Source: Intestinibacillus massiliensis
GTDB lineage: Bacteria > Bacillota > Clostridia > Oscillospirales > Butyricicoccaceae
Reading direction: 5' to 3'
NCBI RefSeq assembly: GCF_900155735.1
Contig: NZ_LT707059.1
Location: forward strand, 429,640-466,170
DNA length: 36,531 nt
Of this stretch, positions 22,201 to 31,725 are shown piece by piece; the stretch's first letter is position 1; each line of letters begins with the position of its first letter. A model generated the notes under the pieces. The model did not search any database, was not told the origin of the DNA, and was given only the letters and a program-made list of their open reading frames with translations. The position numbers were made by a program, and so were the translations under genes.

Positions 22201-22222
22201 CATAGACGAAAACAGAATACGG

Positions 22223-22342
22223 CATTCTTCAGGGCAGGGTGGAATTCCCTACCGGCGGTATAGCCCGCGAGCGGATGCGCAAGCATTGCAGCAGATTCGG
22301 TGAAACTCCGAGGCCGACAGTATAGTCTGGATGGAAGAAGAA
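22223..22342 (+). ncRNA. FMN riboswitch (RFN element)
   Basis: The conserved RFN blocks appear in order: TTCTTCAGGGCAGGGTGGAA, TTCCCTACCGGCGGTATAGC, CCGCGAGCGG, a variable stem around GCGCAAGC, GATTCGGTGAAACTCCGAGG, CCGACAGTATAGTCTGGATG, and the closing P1 strand GAAGAAGAA pairing with ATTCTTC. The element binds flavin mononucleotide and lowers downstream expression when FMN is plentiful. It precedes two terminators and ribD, so control is probably by premature termination. Confidence 0.97.
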
Positions 22343-22380
22343 CACGTAAAAGGCGGTTTCACGCTTATTTTGCGTATTTT

Positions 22381-28021: not shown

Positions 28022-29233
28022 ATGGATTTAAACCGAAACAATATGAAAAAAATTGCATTACTGATTGCCTTTGCGGTACTGCTGTTTGTAGGGCTGGAAA
28101 ATTTCCAGAAAGTGACCGGCGTCATATCCGGCTTTTTCGCGCTGGTTTCCCCCTTTATCCTGGGCGGGTGTATCGCGTTTATCCTGAATGTGCCCATGGC
28201 CTTTATCGAGCGCAGCCTGTTTGGGAAACGCCGGGAAGCCTGGGCGCGCAAGTGCAAACGGCCGGTCAGCCTGGTGCTGGCGATCGCGCTCGTACTGGGG
28301 CTGGTCGTCGTGGTGGTGCTGCTGGTCGCCCCGCAGATTGCGCGTTCCATCGGGCTGCTGAGCAACCGCATGCCAGATTTCTTCCTTAAGGTACAGGGCT
28401 GGATTTCAGAACTGGAAGCCCAGTTCCCAGCGCTGTCGGGGCAGCTTTCCAACCTGCAGTTTGACTGGGATACCATCGATTGGGGCATGGTCGGCCAGAC
28501 CGCATGGGATTTCCTCCGCAACGGTGCGGGTGACATGCTGGGTTCCACCTTTAACATGGCGTCTTCGATCATCGGGGCGATCGTAAACTTCTTCCTCGGT
28601 ATGTTTTTCGCGCTCTATGTGCTGCTGCAAAAGGAAAAGCTTGGCCGCCAGGTCAAAAAGCTCCTGTATGCCGTGCTGCCCTCGCCGAAGGCGGACGGGT
28701 TCCTATCGATCTGCACCCTTTCCCAGCAGACCTTCGCGAACTTTATCACCGGGCAATGTACGGAGGCGGTCATCCTCGGGCTGATGTTTTTTATCAGTAT
28801 GTCGGTGCTGCATTTCCCATATGCATTGCTGGTCGGCGCCTTGATCGCGCTGACGGCGCTGATCCCGATTTTCGGCGCGTTTATCGGATGCTTCGTCGGC
28901 GCATTCCTGATCCTGATTGAAAACCCGATGCAGGCGCTGTGGTTCATTATCCTGTTCCTGGTGCTGCAGCAGGTGGAGGGCAACCTCATTTACCCGCATG
29001 TGGTCGGCAATTCAGTGGGGCTCCCCTCGCTTTGGGTGTTGGTGGCGGTGACCGTCGGCGGCAGCACAATGGGCATCGTGGGCATGATTATCTGTATCCC
29101 GGTCTTTTCGGTGCTCTATACCTTGATCCGGACGGCGACCAACAACCGCCTGCGGGCGCGGGGCGTCCCGCCGGAAAAGTGGGGGGACAGCCCGCAAAAA
29201 CCGCCAAAGGGCAAGACAGGCGCAAAAGAATAG
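28022..29233 (+). CDS. AI-2E family transporter (PF01594-type permease)
   Basis: The 403-residue membrane protein has two N-terminal membrane segments, a third around residue 80-105 (VLAIALVLGLVVVVVLLVAP), a polar region, and then several segments to about residue 375. LTALIPIFGAFIGCFVGAFLILIENP and GNLIYPHVVGNSVGLPSLWVL are the hallmark stretches of the family. Members include TqsA, linked to autoinducer-2 export, and others linked to sodium/proton exchange, so the substrate is open. I chose the ATG at 28022 after AGGGGAG. The Pro/Lys-rich C-terminus (KPPKGKTGAKE) is cytoplasmic. It is followed by a terminator. Confidence 0.88.
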   Translation: MDLNRNNMKKIALLIAFAVLLFVGLENFQKVTGVISGFFALVSPFILGGCIAFILNVPMAFIERSLFGKRREAWARKCKRPVSLVLAIALVLGLVVVVVLLVAPQIARSIGLLSNRMPDFFLKVQGWISELEAQFPALSGQLSNLQFDWDTIDWGMVGQTAWDFLRNGAGDMLGSTFNMASSIIGAIVNFFLGMFFALYVLLQKEKLGRQVKKLLYAVLPSPKADGFLSICTLSQQTFANFITGQCTEAVILGLMFFISMSVLHFPYALLVGALIALTALIPIFGAFIGCFVGAFLILIENPMQALWFIILFLVLQQVEGNLIYPHVVGNSVGLPSLWVLVAVTVGGSTMGIVGMIICIPVFSVLYTLIRTATNNRLRARGVPPEKWGDSPQKPPKGKTGAKE

Positions 29234-29296: not shown

Positions 29297-29324
29297 TTGA
29301 CAAAACCGTGTGGCATGGTATAAT
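29297..29324 (+). promoter_or_regulatory. Strong promoter of the metY-cysK operon
   Basis: A perfect TTGACA (29297-29302), a 16-base spacer and a perfect TATAAT (29319-29324) with an extended TGG in front. This is the best promoter in the window. Transcription would start near 29331, about 150 bases before metY, leaving a long leader. Confidence 0.92.
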
Positions 29325-29376
29325 AAATCCATACTAAACAAATATGAAATAAGGAGTTTGGAAGGAGGCTGCAAAG

Positions 29377-29430
29377 ATGGATACGATTGTACGTGGCAAG
29401 CGGGAGGGCAGCCGAATGTGTTGTCGCTAA
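29377..29430 (+). CDS. Candidate 17-residue cysteine leader peptide
   Basis: A short reading frame in the metY-cysK leader encodes MDTIVRGKREGSRMCCR. Its ATG is 8 bases after GAAGGAGG, a better ribosome binding site than that of metY itself, so it is very probably translated. The two Cys codons (TGT TGT, 29419-29424) come just before the last Arg codon and the stop. Tandem Cys codons are rare by chance, and the genes downstream make cysteine and homocysteine. The natural reading is a leader peptide whose translation reports charged Cys-tRNA supply. Polycysteine upstream frames of this kind are known for sulfur genes in mycobacteria. The stop is 50 bases before metY. Function here is inferred. 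Confidence 0.78.
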   Translation: MDTIVRGKREGSRMCCR

Positions 29431-29463
29431 AAGGGAAAGATTCATTTTAAATCAGACAACACA
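29417..29463 (+). promoter_or_regulatory. Hairpin linking the leader Cys codons to the metY ribosome binding site
   Basis: TGTGTTGTC (29417-29425) is perfectly complementary to GACAACACA (29455-29463). The first arm contains both leader Cys codons. The second ends 3 bases before the metY ribosome binding site AGAAGGA (29467-29473). A ribosome paused at the Cys codons or at the stop would block the first arm. There is no T run, so this resembles control of translation rather than a terminator. Confidence 0.6.
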
Positions 29464-29480
29464 GAAAGAAGGACATTATT

Positions 29481-30779
29481 ATGCAGAACAATAGGAATTA
29501 TCATTTTGAGACCCTCCAGCTCCATGTCGGCCAGGAGCAGCCCGATCCGGTAACAGGCGCACGCGCCGTACCGATTTACCAGACCACATCCTATGTATTT
29601 GAAAACAGCGCGCATGCCGCGGCACGGTTCAGCCTGAACGATGCGGGCAACATTTACGGCCGCCTGACCAACCCCACGCAGGAGGCTTTTGAAAAGCGTA
29701 TTGCGGCGCTGGAGGGCGGTTCCGCGGCGCTGGCGGTGGCGTCCGGCGCCGCAGCGATCACCTACGCGGTGCTGAACCTTGCAAAGGCCGGGCAGCATAT
29801 CGTCGCCGCGCGTACGCTCTATGGCGGCACGCATAACCTGTTCGCCCATACGCTGCCGGAATACGGCATTGCAACGACCTTTGTCGACCCGGACGAGGAG
29901 GGCGCGTTTGAGCGCGCAATCCAGGACAATACCCGCGCGGTCTATATCGAATCGATCGGCAACCCCAACGCAAGCCTGATCGACATCGAAAAGGTTGCCG
30001 AGGTTGCCCACCGGCACGGCATCCCGCTGGTCGTGGACAACACCTTCGCAACCCCGTACCTCCTGCGGCCGATCGAATACGGCGCGGACATTGTTGTACA
30101 CTCTGCCACCAAGTTTATCGGCGGGCACGGTACGGCGCTCGGCGGCGTAATCGTGGAAAGCGGCAAGTTCGATTGGGAGGCTTCGGGCAAATTCCCCGGC
30201 CTGACCGACCCCGATCCCAGCTATCACGGTGTTAGCTTTGCCAAGGCGGCCGGGGCGGCGGCCTTTGTCACCCGCATCCGGGCGATCCTGCTGCGCGACA
30301 CCGGCGCGTCGGTTGCGCCGCTCCACGCGTTCCTGTTCTTGCAGGGGCTGGAAACGCTGTCCCTGCGGGTGGAGCGCCATGTACAAAATGCGGAAAGGGT
30401 GGTAGAATATTTACAGAACCATCCGCTGGTAGAGCGTGTAAACCATCCTTCGCTGCCGGGGAACCCTTACCATGCGCTGTACAAAAAGTATTTCCTGCAG
30501 GGCGGCGCCTCTATCTTTACCTTTGAAATCAAGGGTGGGGAACAGGAAGCGCGCGCGTTTATCGACCATCTGGAGATCTTTTCGCTGCTGGCAAATGTGG
30601 CGGACGTCAAGTCGCTTGTCATCCACCCGGCTTCGACGACCCATGCGCAGCTCAATGCGGAGGAACTCGCGTCTGCGGGGATCCGGCCGAACACCATCCG
30701 GCTGTCGATCGGCACGGAGCATATCGACGATATCCTACTTGACCTTGATACCGCATTCCGGGCGGTTAAAAACCCATAA
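29481..30779 (+). CDS. metY: O-acetylhomoserine sulfhydrylase-type PLP enzyme (MetY)
   Basis: The 432-residue protein belongs to the Cys/Met metabolism PLP family and to the longer O-acetylhomoserine aminocarboxypropyltransferase branch. It starts with [37 protein letters not shown]. The PLP-binding Lys211 is in [13 protein letters not shown], and [10 protein letters not shown] precedes it. The C-terminal part has [22 protein letters not shown]. Expected to make homocysteine from O-acetylhomoserine and sulfide; some members also use O-acetylserine. Expressed from a consensus promoter with a 150-base leader, and followed after 13 bases by cysK, so the two form one sulfide-fixing operon. Confidence 0.93.
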
Positions 30780-30792
30780 AGGAGCCTTTATT

Positions 30793-31725
30793 ATGGAAAA
30801 AATTGCACGTAGCGTAACAGATTTGATCGGCGGTACGCCGCTGCTCGAGCTTGTAAATTTTGAGCGTACCCACGGCCTCAACGCCCACATCCTTGCTAAG
30901 CTGGAGTATTTTAATCCGGCGGGGTCGGCAAAGGACCGGATCGCCAAGGCAATGGTAGAGGATGCGGAGGCCAAGGGGCTGCTCGTCCCCGGTTCGGTGA
31001 TCATCGAGCCGACCAGCGGCAACACCGGGATCGGCCTGGCCGCGGTGGCCGCGGCACATGGATACCGGATCATCTTGACCATGCCGGAGACCATGAGCGT
31101 AGAACGCCGCAACCTGCTCAAGGCGTATGGCGCGGAACTGGTGCTTACGGACGGCGCAAAGGGGATGCAGGGCGCGATCGATAAGGCTGCAGCCCTTGCC
31201 AAGGAAATCCCGCATGCGTTTATCCCCGGCCAGTTTGTAAACCCTGCAAACCCCGCGGCGCACTATGCCACGACCGGCCCCGAGATTTGGGCGGATACCG
31301 ACGGCAAGGTCGATTATTTCGTGGCGGGCGTCGGCACGGGCGGCACGGTTTCCGGCGTGGGCAAATACCTCAAGGAAAAGAACCCTGACGTCCGTATCAT
31401 TGCCGTGGAGCCGTCCGGTTCGCCGGTGCTGTCCGGCGGCAAGCCCGGCCCTCATAAGCTGCAGGGGATCGGCGCGGGCTTTGTCCCGGATACGCTGGAT
31501 ACCGCGGTTTATGATGAGATTATTACGGTCGGGAACGACGAGGCGTTCCAGGCCGGCCGCGCGATCGCGCGCGCGGAAGGGCTGCTTGTCGGCATTTCCT
31601 CCGGCGCGGCCGTATGGGCGGCGATGGAAGTCGCAAAGCGCCCCGGCAACGAAGGCAAGCGGATCGTCGCACTGCTGCCCGACACAGGGGAGCGCTATTT
31701 GTCCACACACATGTTTACTGACTAA
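30793..31725 (+). CDS. cysK: Cysteine synthase A (O-acetylserine sulfhydrylase)
   Basis: The 310-residue fold-type II PLP enzyme makes cysteine from O-acetylserine and sulfide. It starts [20 protein letters not shown]. The PLP lysine is Lys47 in [11 protein letters not shown]. The substrate loop PTSGNTG is at 73-79, followed by the phosphate-binding [15 protein letters not shown] and the late [12 protein letters not shown] chose the ATG at 30793, preceded by AAAGGAGCC; the frame stays open into metY upstream but with no support. No serine acetyltransferase gene (cysE) lies in the window. The gene is followed by a strong terminator. Confidence 0.96.

Follow-up and report, generated by a model that had tools for sequence, protein, structure and literature searches.

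Organization of the metY-cysK leader region

The DNA analysed here, referred to as the window, is a stretch of 36,531 nucleotides of Intestinibacillus massiliensis contig NZ_LT707059.1, and positions are those of the window. A short reading frame lies between a promoter and an operon for sulfur assimilation, accompanied by the following features:

29297..29324, + strand: sigma-70 promoter, TTGACA-16-TATAAT with extended -10 (TG), 12 of 12 consensus bases
29326..29350, no strand assigned: imperfect inverted repeat AATCCATA-9-TATGAAAT, just 3' of the -10 box
29362..29368, + strand: ribosome binding site of the leader, AAGGAGG, read from the sequence
29377..29430, + strand: leader peptide MDTIVRGKREGSRMCCR followed by a stop, 17-codon frame
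29413..29420, + strand: family core CGA-AUG-UG (Arg-Met, then UGN; UGU = Cys in the window)
29417..29425, + strand: 5' arm of a perfect 9-bp stem, holding both Cys codons of the leader
29455..29463, + strand: 3' arm of this stem, ending three bases 5' of the metY ribosome binding site
29467..29473, + strand: metY ribosome binding site, AGAAGGA, read from the sequence
29481..30779, + strand: metY-type O-acetylhomoserine/O-acetylserine sulfhydrylase (TIGR01326, 637 bits, cut-off 495)
30793..31725, + strand: cysK, cysteine synthase A (TIGR01139, 452 bits, cut-off 351)

The original prediction had read the 17-codon frame, with its tandem Cys codons near the end, as a leader peptide through which cysteine controls an operon for a MetY-like sulfhydrylase and cysteine synthase. 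The frame is real, its strong ribosome binding site standing 8 bases before the ATG, and the identity of both genes was borne out by scores above the family cut-offs. Promoter-like sites of any quality numbered 4 between positions 29200 and 29520, against 0.4 expected from shuffled sequences, and the -10 box of the listed promoter ends 52 nt 5' of the start codon. The inverted repeat that follows the -10 box recurs as a near-identical sequence at locus L003, the counterpart in another genome of the genus; by its resemblance to such sites, the repeat is a candidate operator for a repressor of the Rrf2/CymR type.

The leader RNA of the window was predicted to fold more stably than shuffled sequences (z -2.29). 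With a ribosome on the first nine codons, the 3' arm of the stem was predicted to be almost fully paired (mean unpaired probability 0.01-0.02); with the ribosome at Met the value was 0.92. The metY binding site was predicted to be open with or without a ribosome (0.83 versus 0.78 with the ribosome at Met), such that in this prediction the ribosome position changes the adjacent stem only, not the metY binding site. No terminator-like site was found between 29200 and 29520. Elsewhere the window contains an FMN riboswitch (22221-22346, + strand; Rfam RF00050, 120 bits). The same genome carries a second metY-like gene (L005, G000:C34:27986-29239), 45% identical, and no leader of the family described below (GRM leaders) was found in the stretch read upstream of it.

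Conservation of the leader peptide and its CGA codon

In the sole other genome of the genus that was compared (G001, locus L003), a frame stands at the same position with an identical core CGAATGTGT (MIGSRSIRRAERMCRCCAIQ...), and this leader reads ...ERMCRCCAIQ.... Upstream regions of metY were compared at 136 loci (L002, L003 and L007-L140, the window included; 56 from search loci and 80 fetched), which are part of the matches: 33 of 87 genomes in one search and 168 of 394 in another, among the matches listed. The octamer CGAATGTG, encoding Arg-Met followed by UGN, occurred in 86 of the 136 regions within 300 nt and in 87 within 450 nt, with one occurrence on the reverse strand in either case. 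It was the commonest 8-mer in the 300 nt 5' of metY (86, versus 48 for the promoter word TATTGACA). CGAATG was present in 105 of the 136 regions of 450 nt (reverse strand: 8). Subtraction of five matches judged by eye to be due to chance (L046, L059, L105, L107, L132) and of one duplicate left 99 distinct metY leaders, in which the core is in frame with a short ORF, mostly with a ribosome binding site. By our own count the leader is absent from 36 of the 136 regions; at the related loci where it is missing, no known riboswitch was found by Rfam to replace it. Judged by its sequence, the window leader is a divergent member of this large clostridial leader-peptide family: its length to Met is 14 residues, and the NFRxG part of the typical peptide is missing. 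A sequence model (R1) gave no match in the window's own genome at E values up to 10; because it missed even the window leader, R1 is too weak for counting members.

Single loci deviated from the common arrangement. L040 (reverse strand) has two tandem leaders before one metY: the first ends LMRMCT... with a CGC codon and has a terminator-like hairpin (by eye) behind it, and the second ends NERM-UGA with CGA. About 230 nt 5' of metY at L107 lies a variant frame, CCRRLCSRAG, which resembles the terminator class described below, has Arg for Met and was left uncounted. Five metY loci of genus g5 (L030-L034) have no leader, and their upstream regions share, by eye, a CCTAGTATAATAGTAG-like stretch.

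The distribution of the family was evaluated by pattern searches. A strict core pattern matched 36 of 391 genomes of the class and none of the 391 in the reversed control; among its matches, L142, L144 and L149 are probably due to chance. A scan of named genomes yielded at least 120 stretches with the leader pattern, and the results given here rest on 80 of them, the forty stretches L251-L290 being left out. Going by their titles, these 80 derive mostly from Clostridia (Oscillospiraceae, Ruminococcus, Lachnospiraceae, Blautia, Christensenella), with one Erysipelatoclostridium and one Treponema that has a good leader; L190 and L218 are chance-like matches in other phyla. A sample of the phylum beyond the class gave matches in 4 of 299 genomes (reversed control: 1), none of the four leader-like. 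The leader on the contig labelled Treponema (L236, 671-693; MKFFFEKLVRENFRNGRMCLCCLFN) precedes genes that by eye resemble a methyltransferase and an amino-acid ABC transporter, and may reflect horizontal transfer or a misbinned contig.

The strict search (30 loci) and the named genomes (80 stretches) together gave 110 pattern loci, of which L142, L144, L149, L190 and L218 look like chance. By our rule a downstream ORF was found at 100, ten having none, and this ORF was metY in 85 of the 100; L142, L144 and L172 were dropped, L172 being a good leader before an unclear gene. Other targets were NlpA-type lipoproteins (L205, PF03180; seven more by eye), a solute-binding lipoprotein at L151 (SBP_bac_11; a sulfate binder by eye) and metN at L291 (by eye). 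Of 76 operons examined, 29 carried cysK as one of their first three ORFs.

For analysis of the peptide, 86 pattern leaders and the 99 metY leaders were combined, duplicates removed, into a set of 185. As the 86 had been selected on R-x-G-R-M plus TG, only the 99 leaders or the 136 regions serve to gauge how strong these features are. The typical peptide reads M-x3-F-x2-L-[LV]-R-x-N-F-R-[FNC]-G-R-M, with LxRxNFRxGRM as core. In 116 of 184 leaders it runs for 18 residues to Met, and the ribosome binding site scores at least 4 in 181 of 185. A promoter of looser pattern stands 5' of 147 of the 185 leaders, a count made with no control run. Single-base codon differences in the leader frame were synonymous at a fraction of 0.70, against 0.24 expected, when pairs were chosen by nucleotide identity (choice by amino-acid identity inflates the value, to 0.79); the other two frames gave 0.15 and 0.06, and the region downstream 0.21 against 0.20 expected. 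Judged by this excess of synonymous differences, the leader peptide is under selection. These comparisons show a translated peptide, usually of 18 residues to Arg-Met, upstream of sulfur amino-acid genes, selected at the amino-acid level and with an Arg codon that is almost invariantly the rare CGA. The original prediction is supported in so far as a translated, conserved leader peptide precedes sulfur genes in many Clostridia.

The codon choice at this Arg was nearly uniform: of 88 codons before ATGTG, 86 were CGA, one CGC and one CGG, and the other three Arg codons did not occur. CGA is the rarest Arg codon in 109 downstream genes (31 of 1457, 2%), and its share of the remaining Arg codons inside the leaders is 0.116. 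One reading of this conservation is that a protein or a small RNA recognizes CGAATGTG in DNA or RNA, the reading frame being incidental; eight bases are indeed conserved at the nucleotide level, and CGA is near-invariant despite five other Arg codons. However, the core lies in frame with an ORF that has its own ribosome binding site in the 181 leaders counted above, and the 45 bases upstream of the core evolve as coding sequence in the leader frame only. We therefore regard such a site as very improbable. A second codon preference was seen for Phe at codon -4, where UUC outnumbered UUU 95:17, against 103:160 elsewhere in the 185 leaders. Pairing between the ribosome binding site and the fourth and third codons before CGA was noted. 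This pairing was rejected as the reason for UUC, since leaders of the terminator class also use it (10 UUC and 1 UUU among 15), and no explanation thus fits both architectures.

The original prediction had expected a comparison of upstream regions to reveal a conserved short frame with Cys codons near its end. The short frame was found, and Cys codons were common, but 49 of the 185 leaders have no Cys codon at all. Among the 99 metY leaders, the codon after Met was UGA in 33, UGC in 30, UGU in 18, UGG in 3 and another codon in 15. Across all 185, UGA directly follows Met in 57, which speaks against tandem Cys codons as a conserved feature, and 47 of these 57 have no Cys in the preceding 16 codons either. 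Stops directly after Met were without exception UGA (57 of 57), whereas later stops comprised 72 UGA, 48 UAA and 8 UAG. Where the frame continues past Met the expectation of a Cys-rich leader held: 124 of 128 leaders had a Cys codon either at -3 to -1 or within seven codons 3' of Met, a figure that is partly due to how the leader set was selected. In the metY set, the 265 later tail codons included 46 for Cys; the corresponding count in the other frames was 19 of 760. Genus g4 illustrates the exchange: of eight loci read, a leader is present at seven (L010, L014, L015, L016, L021, L024, L026) and absent from L025, with UGC, UGC, UGC, UGG, UGU, UGC and UGA, in this order, as the codon after Met; UG is therefore kept while sense and stop codons interchange. 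UG follows CGA-AUG in 166 of 171 leaders without terminator arms. Cys codons were rejected as the universal conserved element; in the aligned leaders the constant element is CGA-AUG, with Cys codons common and not universal. Cysteine as the signal for the family is plausible.

Ribosome position and RNA folding in two leader classes

The core lies 45-100 nt 5' of the gene in 137 of the 185 leaders. In the short class, which has no terminator, the RNA from the leader end to the ribosome binding site was predicted to be more structured than shuffled sequences (mean z -1.32, n = 152), compared with +0.24 for metY coding sequence (n = 106), -0.39 for the spacer alone and -0.82 for the 5' part of the leader. 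With a ribosome mask at Arg-Met, the binding site had a predicted unpaired probability of 0.507, up from 0.365; masks 36-60 nt upstream gave 0.348-0.384, and a mask 24 nt upstream gave 0.508. Intrinsic terminators were rejected as a general feature of this class, since hairpins of -6 kcal/mol or better that overlap the frame were found in 11 of 153 leaders versus 8 in the reversed control, and hairpins of -8 kcal/mol or better in 7 of 153 versus 3. A direct anti-SD element right after the core was unconvincing (mean z -0.42), and pairing of CGAATGTG with the spacer was weak (longest run 5.50, versus 4.85, sd 0.36, for shuffled 8-mers).

An automatic scan detected an intrinsic terminator between core and gene in 13 of the 185 leaders. 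Leaders of the terminator class have a long antiterminator that starts right after the core; 14 of 185 belong to it by their arm motifs alone, and L291 is a further member. The class had first been drawn up by eye, as 15 leaders including L052 for the counts of R.GRM and codons, and as 15 including L291 and without L052 for folding; L170, L220, L225 and L247, with an automatically found hairpin, were left out of it. A search pattern for this class matched 2 of 394 genomes and missed known members, and was discarded as too strict. The antiterminator arms of L291 and the 14 leaders defined by arm motifs matched their own partner better than those of the others (6 of 20000 permutations).

Folding under ribosome-sized masks predicted a switch in 8 of the 13 leaders with a modelled terminator (L027, L053, L092, L101, L125, L237, L245 and L291), at P-site positions -1 to +1. 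The terminator was improbable with the P site 5' of CGA and probable at CGA or AUG; in most of the eight it became improbable once more beyond about codon +12, at some or all positions. L007, L091 and L178 were predicted to be terminated, or mostly so, at every position tested, L011 and L204 to be open, and no U-tailed hairpin was found in L068 and L112 among the 15 leaders modelled. Without a ribosome, seven of the eight switching leaders were predicted to be open, and the OFF state therefore requires a ribosome that truly dwells at CGA-AUG.

The two classes differ in where Cys codons stand. Cys occurred at -1 to -3 in 10 of 14 terminator-class leaders versus 14 of 171 others (p = 1.4e-7; 11 of 19 versus 13 of 166, p = 6.6e-7, with the four left-out hairpin leaders added), and UG followed Met in 4 of the 14, versus the 166 of 171 given above. 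L245 has no Cys before CGA and a Cys right after AUG, and is predicted to be OFF while waiting at that Cys, hence of the wrong sign for a switch driven by cysteine starvation.

We consider it fairly probable that GRM leaders are a clostridial family of leader-peptide attenuators in which ribosome position sets the expression of sulfur genes. Ribosomes would dwell at CGA-AUG(-UGN), and their position while the downstream RNA folds would decide expression. In the terminator class, the antiterminator arm would stay accessible as long as the ribosome is held at least one codon before CGA (ON) and would be covered once the ribosome stands at CGA-AUG (OFF). In the commoner class, which includes the window, the RNA of the leader end would pair with the spacer or with the ribosome binding site of metY, until a ribosome at Arg-Met opens the pairing (ON). 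Cys codons, before CGA in the terminator class or after AUG in the other, would hold the ribosome back under a shortage of charged tRNA-Cys (ON), and the window leader would use its Cys-Cys codons in this way. For leaders that end in UGA and have no Cys, the delay may come from nascent-chain arrest combined with slow RF2 termination, or from slow decoding of CGA.

A plainer scheme, that of the original prediction, is attenuation by cysteine codons as such, with scarce charged tRNA-Cys stalling the ribosome at Cys codons to turn the operon ON, and with CGA-AUG and the peptide merely setting the pace. It is favoured by the Cys-rich tails and by the placement of Cys codons 5' of CGA, in those 10 of 14 terminator-class leaders, or after AUG, where a stall would mean ON in most models. 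Yet the 57 leaders with a stop codon next to Met, of which 47 lack Cys in the preceding 16 codons, do not fit it, nor do Cys codons explain the near-invariant CGA and the conserved peptide. The 49 leaders without Cys, together with the sign of L245, mean that control by charged tRNA-Cys fails there, and that arrest or slow CGA decoding is needed; as an account of the family, the plainer scheme is possible but doubtful.

Alternatively, the leader could be a constitutive translational helper that keeps the metY site open, all regulation residing in a repressor at the promoter. Inverted repeats were noted after the -10 box in many of 20 leaders listed (no control run), a mask at the leader end modestly opens the metY site, and a protein like the Rrf2-type protein of L180 (by eye) is encoded in 3 of the 76 operons examined. 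This would, however, leave unexplained the terminator class, in which 8 of 13 models switch at the same codons, and the clustered Cys codons, and we think it unlikely.

Candidate signals and relation to known leader systems

The leaders without Cys codons also bring to mind arrest peptides. TnaC, which senses L-Trp, stalls while Pro24 occupies the P site and the UGA stop codon the A site (PMC8429421). TnaC and SpeFL (L-ornithine; same source) resemble GRM leaders in a short peptide, whose length is largely constant in the GRM family, and in UGA as the direct stop. By analogy, an NFRFGRM chain with Met in the P site and a sulfur metabolite bound might block release at UGA or transfer to tRNA-Cys. 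The usual length of 18 residues to Met and, where a stop directly follows Met, the exclusive use of UGA agree with such an arrest, as does R.GRM, which in the metY set is retained by 25 of 33 leaders of the UGA type and by 20 of 48 of the Cys type (p = 0.003). Several leaders, the window's included, nevertheless lack the NFRFG part and keep CGA-AUG-UG, an effect of the peptide alone leaves the preference for CGA among synonymous codons unexplained, and inspection of the leaders by eye did not reveal the TnaC motif WFNID. Moreover, GRM leaders differ from TnaC and SpeFL in sequence, in the interchange of UGA, Cys and Trp within a genus and in the near-invariant CGA. As an account of the family, ligand-dependent arrest of this kind is possible but doubtful.

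The codon CGA is a further candidate. In the window's genome (95.9% complete), 52 tRNA genes were found, with TCT, CCT, ACG and CCG as Arg anticodons, and because of this set only one tRNA, tRNA-Arg(ACG), can read CGA. By eye it carries C32 and A37, and inosine is expected at its wobble position. RlmN uses SAM. In Vibrio cholerae, according to part of PMC12588516, RlmN makes m2A37 and its loss modestly reduces CGA decoding; in E. coli, 2-thiocytidine at position 32 renders the counterpart of tRNA-Arg(ACG) unable to bind CGA, as stated in part of PMC5372741. Two TtcA-like proteins are encoded in the window's genome, both at 206 bits, below the cut-off of 272. By analogy with these systems, the CGA codon might be the sensor, gauging sulfur status through modification of its tRNA. 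The near-invariance of CGA in both architectures speaks for the codon. Thiolation would slow CGA under plentiful sulfur, and in the folding models a difference of one or two codons decides whether this gives OFF. Against this stands that 2-thiocytidine 32 of V. cholerae is reported, in the same part of PMC12588516, for tRNA-Ser(GCU). We rate a CGA sensor as improbable; if true, it would explain why CGA is retained when every Cys codon is lost.

Attenuation governed by ribosome position, the reading that we favour, has precedents. Attenuators of the trp/his type consist of a terminator and an antiterminator 3' of a short frame with codons for the product of the pathway. Terminator-class GRM leaders are predicted to share this layout; they differ in that the modelled switch lies at CGA-AUG, and the family differs in that most members have no terminator and in its conserved peptide. 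Tandem codons for the product, expected in every member of a trp/his-type family, are missing from the Cys-free GRM leaders. Canestrari et al. 2020 reportedly described polycysteine leaderless uORFs of mycobacteria. Unlike these, GRM leaders have a ribosome binding site, a 5' leader and a conserved Arg(CGA)-Met end, and a quarter of them have no Cys, although the window has Cys-Cys; in the window, the position of the -10 box and the strong ribosome binding site likewise contrast with leaderless frames. What the two have in common is a short upstream frame with Cys codons, for which regulation by cysteine is proposed in mycobacteria (PMC9094748, in part).

In clostridia, part of PMC2940859 describes control of cysteine and methionine genes by T-boxes, S-boxes and repressors, and GRM leaders would resemble the cysteine T-boxes and S-boxes in acting in cis on cysK and related operons. 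Neither the window nor 60 related loci matched the Rfam models of T-boxes and S-box/SAM riboswitches at gathering scores, and no Rfam family matched the window leader or these loci, one tRNA aside. Four leader peptides compared with NCBIfam and Pfam matched no family. No description of such a leader was found in titles and beginnings of abstracts, a search with subscription papers and preprints outside its range, and the strings FRFGRM, NFRNGRM, GRMCRC and YGRMCCC occurred in no full text searched. Leader-peptide attenuation is known; the GRM family, with its almost invariant rare codon and its interchange of Cys and UGA, appears to be new.

To the control of cysteine and methionine genes in Oscillospirales, Lachnospiraceae and further Clostridia, the GRM family adds a leader-peptide layer. 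As UGA, Cys and Trp codons replace one another behind the almost invariant rare CGA, it becomes testable whether a leader can sense sulfur status without Cys codons, be it by nascent-chain arrest or by modification of a single tRNA.
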